Virus record (IMG/VR): IMGVR_UViG_3300023179_000468
Location: 1 to 25,440 of that record
Strand: one strand, 5' to 3'
Length of the DNA: 25,440 nucleotides
Origin: a virus
Shown: positions 11,268 through 17,852 of the stretch, in pieces
Position numbering within the stretch: position 1 is the first letter of the stretch
How the letters are laid out: the number at the start of each line of letters is the position of its first letter
Translations under genes and position numbers: made by a program
Notes under the pieces: generated by a model
What the model was told of the DNA's origin: nothing
The model's input: the letters and a program-made list of their open reading frames with translations, nothing else
Databases searched by the model: none

Positions 11268-12209
11268 TTAATGTGTTGCAACTGCAGATTGTCTTGCTTT
11301 TTTAAATTGAGCAATAACAGCTTTGTTATCTTGTTTAACTCGTCTTGATTTAATAAGACTAGCTAAGTTTTCTGGTTGATAGATAGTTAATGATACTCCA
11401 GCAGTTCTTTGCAATTCGTTTTCATTAACATTCAATCCCAAAGCACCACACAAGTCGATTGCGTCTTTAACATATTTATAATCTTTTAATGCTAAAGTTA
11501 TATCTCGCATATCTTTCTGTATTGCTTCCGCCCAACTATAATGAGATTGAACAAAAGTTTGTTTTGCATTTTTAAATGCTCTCATCTGTTCAAACTCTTT
11601 TGCAGTACAAGGAATAGTTCTTGAACGACAATAACTAGTTCCAATTACATATAAAGAATATTTGTTTTTCCATTGTTCAAATATTCCTGTTCCATCATTA
11701 TATCCCAAGAATTTTTTAATCTTATCTTGTTCTTGAGTTAAGTGTGGGTTATGACGATTTTCTTGGTGTTGAATATTTATTTCAGGATTTAACCCAGCAT
11801 TCTTTAAATCATCTCTAAAGTATGCAACAGCAAAATCAAGTCCACCAAATCGTCCTGACATATTAGCGTCCATTTTAAAATCGAAATGTTCGCTGTTCTC
11901 TCTTTCGTTTTCAGTCGTTTCAATTTCAGTATTAGCAAAATAAAAACAACTGTCCTTAGCCACAACATCACACGCATTCCCATATTTCTTTTTAAATGTT
12001 TGTAAGGTTGCAACATCATCTTTTGGATATGCTCTACTTACAATAGCAGTAGCTATTTTAAATGCACTATCGTATGCAGTAGTTATATCCTCTTTAGCTG
12101 ATTTAAAGTTTTCAAGTTCAGGAGTTTGTTCATTCTCAAAATGAGATAAAATCAAACCACCGATTTTTTTTCTTAAATCAGTATTTAGTCTTAGTTTGCT
12201 TGTAGTCAT
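11268..12209 (-). CDS. Hypothetical early-region protein, 313 aa
   Basis: The 313-residue soluble protein starts MTTSKLRLNTDLRKKIGGLI, then an acidic helical region. The middle has HFDFKMDANMSGRFGGLDFA and FRDDLKNAGLNPEINIQHQ, and the C-terminus is basic (IKSRRVKQDNKAVIAQFKKA). The N-terminal half faintly recalls nucleotide-modification-associated phage proteins, but I cannot assign it. It is the first leftward gene from the divergent promoter at 12245-12271. AAAGAGGTATAAA precedes the ATG, the same leader family as its neighbours. Another minus frame inside it at 11804-12019 is a shadow. Confidence 0.7.
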   Translation of the reverse strand: MTTSKLRLNTDLRKKIGGLILSHFENEQTPELENFKSAKEDITTAYDSAFKIATAIVSRAYPKDDVATLQTFKKKYGNACDVVAKDSCFYFANTEIETTENERENSEHFDFKMDANMSGRFGGLDFAVAYFRDDLKNAGLNPEINIQHQENRHNPHLTQEQDKIKKFLGYNDGTGIFEQWKNKYSLYVIGTSYCRSRTIPCTAKEFEQMRAFKNAKQTFVQSHYSWAEAIQKDMRDITLALKDYKYVKDAIDLCGALGLNVNENELQRTAGVSLTIYQPENLASLIKSRRVKQDNKAVIAQFKKARQSAVATH

Positions 12210-12534: not shown

Positions 12535-12608
12535 TTGATATACATTTAACAGACCTGCTTCTAGCAGCTATCTTGTTTACATTGTGGTGGATGGTATGGC
12601 AAAAATAA
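12531..12608 (+). CDS. Single-TM microprotein, 25 aa
   Basis: The frame runs from ATG 12531 to TAA 12606-12608. After an acidic N-terminus (MIDIHLTD) there is one hydrophobic helix, LLLAAILFTLWWMVW, then QK. GAGAAAG lies just upstream of the ATG. It overlaps the next gene by 13 nt. It belongs to a set of five membrane-type microproteins in this window. Function is unknown. Confidence 0.5.
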   Translation: MIDIHLTDLLLAAILFTLWWMVWQK

Positions 12609-12790
12609 AAAAAACATACCTGGACTTTACAGCCTATATCTGGCGGGACCATAAAGAATTAGATCCGGAATATATAAAGCAATGTAAAGCATTCCTGGCC
12701 CAGCTGCCGCGCCCTAACCCGTTTCAAGCTACAAGCAGCAAGCCTCAAGCTGCAAGCGACAAGCAGCAAGCACTTGACAAATCTAAATAG
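12596..12790 (+). CDS. Hypothetical protein, 64 aa, with repeat-encoded C-terminal tail
   Basis: I start this gene at ATG 12596 (MAKIKKTYLDFTAYIWRDHK). An in-frame GTG at 12584 has no support. The N-terminal 45 residues look like a real small domain ending in LPRPNPF. The last 20 or so residues (QAASDKQQAL and similar) are encoded by the tandem heptamer array at 12724-12772. The stop lies in the spacer of the promoter for the next gene. Family unknown. Confidence 0.6.
   Translation: MAKIKKTYLDFTAYIWRDHKELDPEYIKQCKAFLAQLPRPNPFQATSSKPQAASDKQQALDKSK
12724..12772 (+). repeat. Perfect tandem heptamer array, NCAAGCN x 7
   Basis: Seven uninterrupted 7-bp units of form N-CAAGC-N (for example TCAAGCT, ACAAGCA) give exactly 49 bp. 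The array encodes the C-terminal tail of the 64-residue protein and ends two bases before the TTGACA of the next promoter. Two related arrays lie on the far side of the Gp88 gene. Confidence 0.9.
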
Positions 12791-12801
12791 TGGATTATAT
12801 A
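12774..12801 (+). promoter_or_regulatory. Sigma70-like promoter for the Gp88 gene
   Basis: TTGACA (12774-12779), a 16-nt spacer and TATATA (12796-12801) read rightward. The -10 box lies in the third copy of the 13-mer GGATTATATAGGA (12792-12804). The predicted transcription start, about 7 nt past the -10 box, coincides with ATG 12808, so the transcript may be leaderless. The AGGA in the 13-mer is only three bases from the ATG, a poor Shine-Dalgarno spacing. Confidence 0.6.
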
Positions 12802-12807
12802 GGACAT

Positions 12808-13413
12808 ATGAAAGTAACAGAATTAGATCAAATCACCGGCACCCTGTCAAAGCCTTCTAAGATGCCAGGCTGGAGCTACGGTATACCTGCTAAAGAATGC
12901 AAAACAGGTTCTAAGCTTGCAAAAATACCAGGCACTGTCTGTCACGGCTGCTACGCTCTGAAGGGTTGCTATGTATTTCCTAATGTACAAGAAGCTCAGT
13001 ACAAGCGACTAGCAGCAATTGATCACCCTCTTTGGGTCCAGGCAATGGCAGCTCAGATCTTACGCCATAAGTCAAAATGGTTCCGATGGCATGACTCTGG
13101 AGACATACAATCATTAGAACATTTAAAAAAGATATTCGAAGTATGCAAACTAACGCCAGATGTTAATCACTGGCTCCCGACGCGAGAAGCTTCTATTATA
13201 GCATGTATAACCCCTGAAGAGGTTCCAGCTAATCTTATTATACGAATTTCAGCAACTAAAGTAGATGGCAATCCACCTACTTTCTGGCCTTATACCTCCA
13301 GTGTAGTAACTGAAAACAAAACATGCCCTGCAGCGGAGCAGGATAATAAATGCTTAAGCTGTAGGGCGTGTTGGGATCGCAATGTTAAAAACGTTGCATA
13401 TGGTAAACACTAA
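12808..13413 (+). CDS. Gp88-domain Cys-rich phage protein, 201 aa
   Basis: The protein matches the 'Gene product 88' family seen in many phages. Signature segments are PSKMPGWSYGIPAKECKTGS, AKIPGTVCHGCYALKGCYVF, VQEAQYKRLAAIDHPLWVQAM, FRWHDSGDIQSLEHL and the C-terminal Cys cluster CPAAEQDNKCLSCRACWD. The clustered Cys suggest metal or Fe-S binding, but the biochemical role of the family is not known to me. I start it at ATG 12808, because the ATG 18 nt upstream lies inside the promoter. The gene is visibly more GC-rich than most neighbours, sits on the opposite strand, has its own promoter and is bracketed by heptamer arrays. These are signs of a separately acquired cassette. Confidence 0.8.
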   Translation: MKVTELDQITGTLSKPSKMPGWSYGIPAKECKTGSKLAKIPGTVCHGCYALKGCYVFPNVQEAQYKRLAAIDHPLWVQAMAAQILRHKSKWFRWHDSGDIQSLEHLKKIFEVCKLTPDVNHWLPTREASIIACITPEEVPANLIIRISATKVDGNPPTFWPYTSSVVTENKTCPAAEQDNKCLSCRACWDRNVKNVAYGKH

Positions 13414-13414
13414 C

Positions 13415-13552
13415 ATGGCCCGATATCATAACTATCACTCATACCGGGGAGACTCGGGGTCGGGCCGTAACCCACAAGCCGCAAGCAACAAGCACCAAGC
13501 GTCAAAGCTGCAAGCAGCAAGCGTGCCAAGCTTCAAGCGCCAAGCGTCTTGA
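13415..13552 (+). CDS. Small repeat-tailed protein, 45 aa
   Basis: The ATG follows the Gp88 stop by one base and the frame runs to TGA 13550-13552. The first 20 residues (MARYHNYHSYRGDSGSGRNP) are His/Tyr/Gly-rich. The rest is encoded by the heptamer array at 13474-13546 and gives QAASNKHQAS, close in composition to the tail of the 64-residue protein (QAASDKQQAL). It overlaps the 3' end of the convergent nuclease gene by 20 nt. It may be a non-coding 3' region, but its position and matching tail favour translation. Confidence 0.4.
   Translation: MARYHNYHSYRGDSGSGRNPQAASNKHQASKLQAASVPSFKRQAS
13417..13466 (+). terminator. Hairpin after the Gp88 gene
   Basis: GGCCCGA (13417-13423) can pair with TCGGGCC (13460-13466). 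The intervening bases hold a further GC-rich stretch (CCGGGGAGACTCGGGG). No T-tract follows, so termination is uncertain. Confidence 0.3.
13474..13546 (+). repeat. Tandem heptamer array, NCAAGCN type, about 10 units
   Basis: Units such as ACAAGCC, GCAAGCA and CCAAGCG follow each other with two small phase slips (an 8-bp and a 9-bp unit). The array covers the 3' end of the 45-residue frame and the last bases of the convergent nuclease gene. Confidence 0.85.
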
Positions 13553-13901
13553 ATTTTTGATATATTGATTCGAGCCCCAAGCAGCAAGCATCAAGCTTCA
13601 AGCCGCAAGCAGCGAGGGACTGGATGCTAGAGCCTTCATAAAGTTTTAGAAGCGAGTCTCTTTCAGAAGAAACTAGGATAAAAGTATTCTTAGGATGCCT
13701 TACATGGAAGCTAATTTGATGGGGACTTAGCTTAACAGAATTACCTTTTGCAACCTTTAATTCAACAGTAAAAAAAGTATGATTTTTATTATACGCCAAT
13801 AGATCTGGAGTGCCAAAACCGCTTAAATTTTCTAGCCTTGTGAAAGATATTTCAGGCATAAATTTTTTAACTTTATGCCAAAGTTTTCGTTCAGGTTTCA
13901 A
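13533..13901 (-). CDS. VRR-NUC-like PD-(D/E)XK nuclease, 122 aa
   Basis: The start MKPERKLWHKVKKFMPEISF is followed by the catalytic layout SGFGTPDLLAY (Asp) and FFTVELKVAKGN (E-x-K), then VKLSPHQISFHVR and NTFILVS. This is the order of the VRR-NUC / Holliday-junction-resolvase-like nuclease fold. The C-terminal part (SLAACGLKLDACCLGL) is encoded antisense to the heptamer arrays at 13577-13632 and 13533-13546, so the tail is repeat-derived. Likely roles are recombination or DNA processing. It starts 5 nt after the 75-residue gene. Confidence 0.75.
   Translation of the reverse strand: MKPERKLWHKVKKFMPEISFTRLENLSGFGTPDLLAYNKNHTFFTVELKVAKGNSVKLSPHQISFHVRHPKNTFILVSSERDSLLKLYEGSSIQSLAACGLKLDACCLGLESIYQKFKTLGA
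13577..13632 (+). repeat. Tandem heptamer array, CAAGC grading into CGAG/CTGG/CTAG, 8 units
   Basis: The first five units are N-CAAGC-N (CCAAGCA, GCAAGCA). The last three change core but keep the phase and the C2/G5 pattern (GCGAGGG, ACTGGAT, GCTAGAG). This transition links the overt CAAGC arrays to the cryptic CGAG/CTAG patches found elsewhere in the window. Confidence 0.8.
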
Positions 13902-14247: not shown

Positions 14248-14808
14248 ATGTCTAGTATGACACAACCAAAAAGATTAACAGAAATGCAAATGAAATTTGC
14301 ATATGAGTTAGTTACAAACGAAGGTAGAAAGACTGGTGCGGAGTGTGCTATTGCTGCAGGTTATTCACCAGAAGCTGCAATTGTATATGCAAGTAAACTA
14401 CAAAATCCAAAAGTATATCCATTGGTTGTACAATATATTGGAAAATTAAGATCGGAGTATCAAAAAAAATATGACGTTACATTTGAAAGACACATATCAG
14501 AACTTGCAAAGCTTAGAGACAATGCAAGAGAAAACAAGGCTTGGTCAGCTGCTGTCAATGCTGAAGTTGCTAGAGGAAAAGCAGCGGGGTTGTACGTTGA
14601 ACAAAAGATTATTAGGACCGGTAAGTTAGAAGATCTTACTGCAGAACAGTTAGAGGCTCGTATGAAAGAAATTATAAACGAGTACTCACCGATCCTAGAG
14701 GGTGTTGTATTAGATGATATTAAAAAAGAAGTTAAATCTAAACAAAAAGAAATTAACTATTCTTCATCGTCATCATCAAAATCATCTGAATCAGAATCAC
14801 AATCGTGA
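14248..14808 (+). CDS. terS: Terminase small subunit-like protein, 186 aa
   Basis: The N-terminal half, LTEMQMKFAYELVTNEGRK then AECAIAAGYSPEAAIVYASK and LQNPKVYPLVVQYI, is the helix-turn-helix DNA-recognition region typical of phage small terminases. It would bind the packaging site and feed DNA to TerL. The middle is helical (VTFERHISELAKLRDNARE). The last 15 residues are almost all Ser (SSSSSSKSSES) and are coded opposite an acidic minus-strand gene. It is a lone plus-strand gene about 4 kb from terL, with no clear promoter. ATG 14248 or the ATG three codons later are both possible starts. Confidence 0.75.
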   Translation: MSSMTQPKRLTEMQMKFAYELVTNEGRKTGAECAIAAGYSPEAAIVYASKLQNPKVYPLVVQYIGKLRSEYQKKYDVTFERHISELAKLRDNARENKAWSAAVNAEVARGKAAGLYVEQKIIRTGKLEDLTAEQLEARMKEIINEYSPILEGVVLDDIKKEVKSKQKEINYSSSSSSKSSESESQS

Positions 14809-16283: not shown

Positions 16284-16551
16284 CCACGTAATATATCTCA
16301 ACGCCCAACGTTTTCTGTTTTTTCGATACAGAACGATTAATTGTGTCTCCTGGTTTACAGTTATAACTTTGGCTCTTACGACGAGATATGGTTTTAACAT
16401 CAAGTAAACGGGTTTTACCTTTCTTATCAACGACAATAAGATCAAACGGACATTGTGGATCCAATGATTTAGTAACATAATAACCTTTCTTTAAAAATTC
16501 TTGAGCGGCGATTAATTCTGAACATACTCCTTTTATTGTTTTAGTTGTCAT
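16273..16551 (-). CDS. PD-(D/E)XK nuclease/resolvase-like protein, 92 aa
   Basis: The layout is KGVCSELIAAQEFLKKGYYV (helix with Glu), CPFDLIVVDKKGK (catalytic Asp) and TRLLDVKTISRR (D-x-K). A basic stretch and IYYV strand follow. This matches small Holliday-junction-resolvase-like PD-(D/E)XK proteins related to some homing or restriction-type nucleases. It is short but has all three motif positions. It overlaps the HNH gene by 11 nt. A shadow frame inside it (16218-16478) is not a gene apart from its last 21 codons, which form the TM microprotein. Confidence 0.75.
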   Translation of the reverse strand: MTTKTIKGVCSELIAAQEFLKKGYYVTKSLDPQCPFDLIVVDKKGKTRLLDVKTISRRKSQSYNCKPGDTINRSVSKKQKTLGVEIYYVDGN

Positions 16552-17149
16552 TGTTAATTTCTATTTCTTCATTTTCATTAAAAATTTCTTTTTTATTTAA
16601 AGATAATTCCCACATTTTATATACAAGGTCATTTGGTAATCTTGATTCAATAGTAGGTCCTGTTGAATTTTTTTCATGAGTAGTCCATTCTAAATTATTA
16701 GGTCTATAATCTACCTTTAAACCATTAATATGATTAACTAAAACATGAGTTTTAGGATCTGGATTTGGATTAAACGCAAGACATACTAATTTATGCATTT
16801 GCATTTTTATATTAGAACCATCATCAAACATTAAACCTATTTGAGAATAGAATCCTTTATTTGGCATAATCCTTGGTAAAATTGCATATACAGATCTTTT
16901 TCTTTTAGTTTCTTTTATAACTTCCACCCATGGCCAAATTTGTTCTTTAAATATAGGCGCAACATTTTCAACATTATGAAAAAAATGAAATCCACCTGTA
17001 GAATGTATTTTATATTTTCCTTTTGGAAGTAATTTTAATTGAGGGTGATCTATATCTTCTAACGCTACAGTATTGGAAGGTATTGCATTACCTGTTTTTA
17101 CATTAATAATTAAAGGTTCAAATAAAGTTAATTGCTGCATATAGCCCAT
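16541..17149 (-). CDS. HNH endonuclease, 202 aa
   Basis: The C-terminal half carries the HNH_3 type core: MHKLVCLAFNPNPDPKTHV, then LVNHINGLKVDYRPNNLEWTT with the His-Asn-His-type residues, followed by a helix. The N-terminal 90 residues are unlike typical homing nucleases and may be a DNA-binding or target-recognition part. It could be a free-standing homing nuclease or a packaging-associated HNH. Start choice is between ATG 17149 and ATG 17140 (MQQLTLFEP). The first codons overlap a TM microprotein in another frame. Confidence 0.8.
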   Translation of the reverse strand: MGYMQQLTLFEPLIINVKTGNAIPSNTVALEDIDHPQLKLLPKGKYKIHSTGGFHFFHNVENVAPIFKEQIWPWVEVIKETKRKRSVYAILPRIMPNKGFYSQIGLMFDDGSNIKMQMHKLVCLAFNPNPDPKTHVLVNHINGLKVDYRPNNLEWTTHEKNSTGPTIESRLPNDLVYKMWELSLNKKEIFNENEEIEINNDN

Positions 17150-17205
17150 ATTATAATTGCAATAAATAGTATTATGATAAGACTTAATGAGGATATCCCG
17201 CCCAT
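17128..17205 (-). CDS. Single-TM microprotein, 25 aa
   Basis: The frame runs from ATG 17203-17205 to TAA 17128-17130. MGGISSLS is followed by a strongly hydrophobic LIIILFIAIIIWAIC and SN. It begins inside the 3' end of the FkbM gene and ends inside the HNH gene, bridging their 34-nt gap. Confidence 0.5.
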   Translation of the reverse strand: MGGISSLSLIIILFIAIIIWAICSN

Positions 17206-17852
17206 ATAATTTTATTGTTAATATCGTAACCAGTTTGTAATTCTTTATTTCTTACATTTACAAATATAACATCCATACCCATAATCACAGCATCACCAAT
17301 ATTTATTTCATCAAAGGTTGCAATCTCAAAACCTATTTGATGTAAATAACCAATTACTTTACCAGCAGAAGGTGCACCAATATTATAATTATGTGGTTGT
17401 AATTCTAACCATAAATATTTTGCATTGTGAATAATTCCAGGAGATCCTTGGATAATATCAAGTTCAGCTCCTTGAACATCCATTTTAATTAAATCAAACT
17501 TTTGTGTAGGTAATAATGATTCTAATGTATAACATCTTTTTTTAATCGTTTTAAATGGAACATTGGTGTTTTCTTTATAGATTCCATTACCATGATTATT
17601 ATTTTTATCATCACAAATATAATAATCTATTTCTTTGTTTTCTTTACCAAGCAATGCAGTCATATAAGGACCCACCTTTATTAAATCATTAATATGATCT
17701 TCATTAGCTTCAATCATTAATACTTTTGAATTTGGATATTCTTTTTTAAACTCAGTCGTCCATTTACCTTTATGAGCGCCGATATCTAATACAGAATCAA
17801 ATTGTACTTTATGTAGTTTTAAAAACTCAAAAGCTTTAAATTTATAGATCAT
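17184..17852 (-). CDS. FkbM-family SAM-dependent methyltransferase, 222 aa
   Basis: VLDIGAHKGKWTTEF is the SAM-binding motif I, VLMIEANEDHIN the acidic loop, and FDLIKMDVQGAELDIIQG the hallmark FkbM segment. The C-terminus has AKYLWLELQPHNYN and an IGDAVIMGMDVIFVN strand. FkbM enzymes O-methylate sugars or small molecules. In a phage it might modify host glycans or phage products. I start it at ATG 17852, which overlaps the stop of the 29-residue microprotein (TAATG). A GTG 60 nt upstream would only translate that microprotein's region out of frame. Confidence 0.85.
   Translation of the reverse strand: MIYKFKAFEFLKLHKVQFDSVLDIGAHKGKWTTEFKKEYPNSKVLMIEANEDHINDLIKVGPYMTALLGKENKEIDYYICDDKNNNHGNGIYKENTNVPFKTIKKRCYTLESLLPTQKFDLIKMDVQGAELDIIQGSPGIIHNAKYLWLELQPHNYNIGAPSAGKVIGYLHQIGFEIATFDEINIGDAVIMGMDVIFVNVRNKELQTGYDINNKIIWAGYPH

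Follow-up and report, generated by a model that had tools for sequence, protein, structure and literature searches.

TRAP sites on RNA consist of a short word repeated on one strand with free spacers of 2–3 nt, Rho utilisation sites carry YC dinucleotides at intervals of 7–9 nt, and integron cassettes are single-gene units that lie between similarly oriented sites and whose order is exchangeable, the attC sites being inverted repeats. As judged by comparison of architecture, the system closest to the phage arrays reported here is that of the ParB/omega heptads (parS) of pSM19035. According to excerpts of the published account, these are formed by 7–10 contiguous non-palindromic 7-bp units which overlap promoters, the heptad word being WATCACW and the native array being of mixed orientation; single sites are weak and contiguous sites are needed (PMC9499535). 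The phage arrays of the type found upstream of gene gp88 (array A1, see below) are likewise contiguous 7-bp direct units at promoters, whereas those located 3′ of genes are not. Unlike the heptads described in those excerpts, the phage arrays use the word CAAGC, which does not conform to WATCACW, have one orientation, recur at steps of 7 or 8 nt and are also found 3′ of genes. No cognate ribbon-helix-helix protein was found among the window proteins searched, the genome being incomplete, and on this comparison we would not file the phage arrays with the pSM19035 heptads.

The window, i.e. the whole stretch of DNA analysed, is a 25,440-base virus record coding for a portal, a large terminase, polA and a UvrD-like helicase. 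Its TerL, TerS, portal and polA proteins are homologous to those of HTVC027P/HTVC023P, the matches to Pelagibacter phage HTVC027P, the closest isolate having this region, amounting to 74%, 73%, 68% and 58%, respectively. Judging from these sequences, the window covers part of the genome of an HTVC023P-type phage, a relative of pelagiphage HTVC027P. Phages of this group infect bacteria that are abundant in the ocean, and the HTVC023P type is itself reported to be abundant and widely distributed there (PMC9599517). The gene order common to the array phages comprises terL, o88, o117, o70 and o313 (leftward), followed by rightward cargo genes, a VRR-NUC-like gene and o75 (both leftward), and terS. 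By this comparison of gene orders the variable island would extend from o313 (11268–12209, minus strand), at its left border, to the terminase small-subunit gene (14248–14808, plus strand), at its right border. Inside it, a 64-aa ORF of the o68/F6-like type (12596–12790, plus strand) precedes gp88 (12808–13413, plus strand), which is followed by a 45-aa ORF read off the sequence (13415–13552, plus strand), which is probably incidental. A VRR-NUC-like ORF (13533–13901, minus strand; phrog_2165, 9.3e-11) is convergent with gp88. The start of gp88 at ATG 12808 was chosen by comparison with relatives, the mechanically delimited ORF beginning at GTG 12790.

Gp88 itself belongs to PF17338, with 108.7 bits against a Pfam gathering cut-off of 24.4. 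Its AF2 model is confident (pLDDT 94.6); it gave no Foldseek match at E 0.001, and the protein has no sequence match in the PDB. In a second structural comparison the best rows were mostly radical SAM enzymes, led by QueE with Z 6.2 and an rmsd of 3.8 over 135 residues, values that fall within the chance range. The invariant cysteines form a C-x13-C-x2-C motif, with four more near the C-terminus. As a lead only, the model hints at a radical-SAM-like protein, possibly a compact FeS enzyme.

Three arrays of exact CAAGC units at a 7-base step, all on the plus strand, are found around gp88 as the first-pass annotation had reported, and they exceed chance: when the window was simulated 200 times with a first-order Markov model, no run was longer than 2 units. 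Array A1 (12725–12773, plus strand) has indeed 7 exact CAAGCNN units and lies directly upstream of the putative gp88 promoter. Array A2 (13475–13547, plus strand), located 3′ of gp88, has 9 exact units, in runs of 4 (13475–13502), 2 (13511–13524) and 3 (13527–13547), and one degenerate unit. In array A3 (13571–13632, plus strand), which extends over the 3′-terminal part of the VRR-NUC-like ORF on the opposite strand, 5 exact units (13578–13612) stand between in-phase degenerate ones, those that follow being CGAGGGA, CTGGATG and CTAGAGC. The unit numbers given earlier for A2 and A3, about 10 and 8, are thus valid if in-phase degenerate units are included, the exact units being 9 and 5. At least 120 IMG/VR stretches have five perfect CAAGCNN units; among the IMG/VR matches listed, 119 of 120 such stretches have one or more proteins in common with the window and 96 of 120 have a gp88 homologue. 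Complete viral scans with two scrambled words of equal composition returned 38 and 43 stretches. Since per-locus counts are not all independent, we have used 31 representatives at 90% identity, taken from an independent Gp88 protein search and from isolates; some loci are two pieces of a single contig. In these 31 gp88 representatives CAAGC is the top-ranked 5-mer near the gene (413 occurrences versus 13 expected; 17 for GCTTG) and array clusters are present in 29, gp88 without arrays being found in L192 and in HTVC033P. In HTVC033P the gene is located near primase and polA, instead of terS. Clusters on both strands occur in 4 of 202 loci, the odd cluster being in all four cases inside a coding sequence and mostly of irregular spacing. 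The arrays are real and conserved, and their presence in isolate HTVC027P and in many independent contigs makes an assembly artefact unlikely. In phage DSL-LC04, a distant relative, an intergenic stretch adjoining terL (L205 4570–4830) carries the word CACGG at steps of about 7–8 nt, which is perhaps an analogous array.

An analysis of 423 unique clusters shows steps of 7 nt (2017 times), 8 nt (152 times), 9 nt (10 times), 6 nt (once) and 4 nt (11 times). The CAAGC pentamer is fixed, the spacer has at least 2 nt and is otherwise free, all 16 dinucleotides being found, and the direction is always that of the cargo genes. Degenerate units inside arrays are mostly CGAGC and CAGGC, the G hardly ever being lost, and in a sister group (L134 to L143, except L138) CAAGC recurs mostly at step 8. 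Of 1297 pairs of adjacent spacers 66 are identical, where shuffling predicts 94 ± 9.5; at a distance of three units 89 of 601 pairs are identical, more than the 43 ± 6.7 expected. Identical neighbouring spacers amount to 4–8% in these phages, compared with 89% in the CAAGC arrays of bacterial genomes (among the matches listed) and with 75% and 91% for the two control words among viral sequences. Slippage produces tandem repeats whose neighbouring units are nearly identical, which is not the case here; as neighbouring spacers in the phage arrays differ beyond chance, unlike those of the genome arrays and control words, the earlier suggestion of length variation by slippage does not account for them. 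The difference between 4–8% and 75–91% indicates therefore that the CAAGC word is held by selection and not by copying. RNA folding gave no sign that the spacers are selected to keep the structure open (z 0.03 ± 0.06).

The arrays also had been described as encoding protein tails. The translations do contain them, QAASDKQQAL being the tail of the 64-aa ORF, coded by A1, and LAACGLKLDACC that of the VRR-NUC-like ORF, whose 3′ end is coded by the array complement; the 45-aa ORF, in turn, runs through A2. Of the 35 loci in which an array lies close to the o68-like ORF, 32 have this ORF running through it, with 18, 10 and 4 of them in the three respective frames; in 9 further loci no array is found within 400 nt. 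In addition, no stop codon is possible in any sense frame of a (CAAGC)NN array, a property of 248 of the 1024 words. Since all three frames are used and the word is stop-free in each of them, the tails are a by-product of the arrays and a coding role was rejected.

In 158 of 161 loci, the 420 nt downstream of gp88 contain at least three CAAGC, and in gp88-first loci with both flanks covered (n = 69) a 3′ array is present in 69 and a 5′ array in 64. The five exceptions belong to a single group; in L148, one of them, the stop codon of the upstream ORF overlaps the gp88 start (TAATG), so that no promoter is expected there. Among the 5′ arrays, 81 of 127 (after deduplication) have TTGAC no more than 15 nt beyond their end; among the 3′ arrays 2 of 182 do, and the background is 1.2%. 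On a recount this element directly adjoins the 5′ array in 51 of 129. In the window, the putative gp88 promoter (12774–12801, plus strand), which we read by eye, starts at the base after A1, with TTGACA at 12774–12779, a 16 nt spacer and TATATA at 12796–12801; it was not listed by a consensus promoter scan of the window. A perfect-stem search for intrinsic terminators found a GC stem and T run in 3 of 161 gp88 3′ regions; as judged by this search, the arrays are not intrinsic terminators.

Other elements were noticed in the vicinity of the arrays. Palindromes of the TGCGACA...TGTCGCA type, possible operator sites, lie near arrays or promoters in L134, L148, L155 and L082. A repeated hairpin motif, CTGATCCCTGATC ... 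GATCTGGGATCAG, is found at L201 3250–3302, at L202 3720–3780 and upstream of the first array in L119 and L039, with several copies in some loci. HTVC027P carries a match to Rfam family RF02976, ‘Flavobacterium-1 RNA’ (90.2 bits; L201 3477–3597, plus strand), with the first CAAGC array about 16 nt downstream; the family is matched in 8 of 30 related phage records, 5 of them above the cut-off, and an Rfam scan of the window gave no family at gathering threshold.

The first-pass annotation had proposed that the arrays mark the edges of a transferable Gp88 cassette. They do bracket gp88 in relatives and delimit exchangeable units; other genes are nevertheless bracketed in the same way, also in loci that lack gp88, so that the cassette is not specific to Gp88, and a Gp88-only cassette was rejected as a general rule. 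The same layout of o313, arrays, VRR-NUC-like gene and terS is found with other genes in place of gp88 in L039, L072 and L119, the latter with six array clusters; these three contigs hold no gp88, which is absent from 9 of the 11 contigs checked, all of them fragments. Among 205 array-to-array segments, 201 contain a plus-strand ORF of at least 30 aa, and the segments fall into 36 families, gp88 accounting for 119 loci and a further 12 families having at least 2 members. An array lies between 75 of 103 adjacent cargo pairs. Of the 28 pairs without one, 15 were examined and are mostly a few bases apart and operon-like, several having larger gaps (sizeable in F3–F0 of L036 and F0–F6 of L081). 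Family F2 is found upstream of gp88 in 8 loci and downstream in 6, and family F8 upstream in 2 and downstream in 1, in either case with an array between. Overall, an array follows gp88, separates most other cargo units, and runs into the −35 hexamer of the next unit where a promoter starts it.

With this anatomy, the remaining systems can be compared. Like TRAP sites, the phage arrays are made of a short one-strand word with free spacers of 2–3 nt; unlike them, they have a different word and abut promoters, and no TRAP-like protein was found among the window proteins searched. As in integrons, single-gene units are framed by similarly oriented sites and their order is exchangeable; however, no inverted-repeat attC-like sites were seen (17 GCTTG versus 413 CAAGC) and many phage units have their own promoter. 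A periodicity of the Rho type was rejected, as there is no YC enrichment, 932 of 2017 units having a pyrimidine immediately ahead of CAAGC. Bacterial CAAGC heptamer arrays, which share word and step with those of the phages, belong among the matches listed often to Pseudomonas, Stutzerimonas, Halomonas, Alcanivorax and relatives (L207–L324). Again among the matches listed, they often lie just after stop codons, facing inverted GCTTG arrays of the convergent gene. They differ from the phage arrays in that, in these same matches, spacers are mostly identical and inverted GCTTG partners often present.

These results suggest that the arrays probably control transcription of exchangeable gene units. 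More specifically, we give an even chance to the proposal that they are oriented boundary elements of transcription units, combining a terminator or insulator with an operator, for the rightward units of the variable island. A protein or other partner, one subunit per CAAGC, would bind many copies together; its occupancy of the array would end or insulate the upstream unit and occupy the −35 region of the next, giving each unit its own timing. Because every unit would be framed by the same oriented sequence, a unit could be swapped, acquired or lost with no disturbance to those beside it, and perfect repeats would stay short because the spacers differ, which would limit slippage. We lean towards the word being read as single strand and not as double-stranded DNA, since individual arrays combine steps of 7 and 8 nt and there is hardly any step of 6 nt. 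In our reading, the arrays are usable as seams for unit exchange only incidentally. What speaks against the proposal is that the spacers show no selection for openness, that 28 of 103 cargo pairs have no array between them, that gp88 stands without arrays in HTVC033P and L192, that the consensus scan missed the gp88 promoter, and that the window proteins searched yielded no reader.

An unlikely alternative is that the arrays serve chiefly as seams for recombination, with single-gene units exchanged through short oriented homologies and no direct role in transcription. Several observations agree with it: the arrays bound at least 13 cargo families, F2 and F8 switch sides of gp88 with an array between, and 6 of 17 relatives (L121, L122, L125, L132, L133 and L145) have an extra 350–400 bp or so between gp88 and the last array. 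Pure seams, however, need neither abut a −35 hexamer nor spare tightly spaced genes, and with free spacers only 5 bp of exact homology remain. Alignments that end at array edges do so in part artefactually, given the similarity of all arrays to one another, and 5 of 19 F2 matches lie outside the array island, on the minus strand. An RNA-level element, in which a ring or multimer would bind, in a TRAP-like manner, the 3′ region of every mRNA through its CAAGC words and affect stability or translation and not termination, fits the sense orientation 3′ of gp88 and the tolerance of spacers of 2 or 3 nt but almost never fewer. We consider it improbable, as a purely RNA role does not predict that the last array unit adjoins the −35 element, and Pfam and PHROGs searches of window proteins gave no RNA-binding candidate.

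A role as packaging or replication site, for example as repeats bound by the neighbouring terminase small subunit, would agree with the position of the arrays next to terS and with the confinement of matches in the complete HTVC027P genome to 16506–17737. It would also agree with HTVC023P, whose TerS is diverged (34%) and whose terS and terL region, over 14 kb, is free of such arrays. A single site would nevertheless suffice for it, whereas the arrays recur at unit borders, as in the six clusters of L119, and abut promoters, and we regard this role as decidedly improbable. Lowest in our estimation, and very remote, is that slippage has made these arrays, as it does common variable tandem repeats, or that they are maintained for the sake of the C-terminal peptides encoded in them: unit number does differ between relatives, and the raised identity three units apart may reflect 21-bp duplications, but neighbouring spacers are more different than chance, contrary to true slippage arrays and control words, and the coding frame is not conserved.

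In favour of the boundary-element proposal are expression data for HTVC027P, in which gp33 is gp88 and in which gp34 and gp33 each have an array right upstream, fused to a TTGACA promoter. According to the infection transcriptome study, gp33 and gp34 form an extra temporal cluster at 6–9 hpi and gp30 another, both separate from the classes of early, middle and late genes (PMC12753301). Of the three genes that fall outside the usual classes, two are those with an array right upstream. The main text of the study mentions neither repeats nor promoters (PMC12753301). The third gene, gp30 (L201 5406–5582), is an ArfA ribosome-rescue gene situated between the array island and terS, with an early-and-late expression of its own (PMC12753301). 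As for a reader protein, ten small and conserved or uncharacterised proteins of the window, which is a partial genome, were compared with Pfam and PHROGs and yielded no ribbon-helix-helix or clear DNA-binding family and no convincing candidate, nor did gene presence in seven array phages versus HTVC023P point to a nameable one. Openly licensed literature gave no match for the spelled repeat words or PF17338, and nothing relevant, by title or abstract start, on heptamers, phage cassettes or HTVC023P with repeats; the passages on repeats consulted in HTVC phage papers do not describe these arrays.

Tentatively, and with rather more doubt than attaches to the boundary elements themselves, the arrays may represent a new class of punctuation, in which a directional multi-copy pentamer array, with a putative reader factor, would terminate one unit, gate the promoter of the next and make the island modular for swaps of single units. 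A cis element so strongly conserved predicts a reader factor and a means of keeping cargo genes interchangeable, and with HTVC027P and its host HTCC1062 in culture and infection RNA-seq published, this is testable now.
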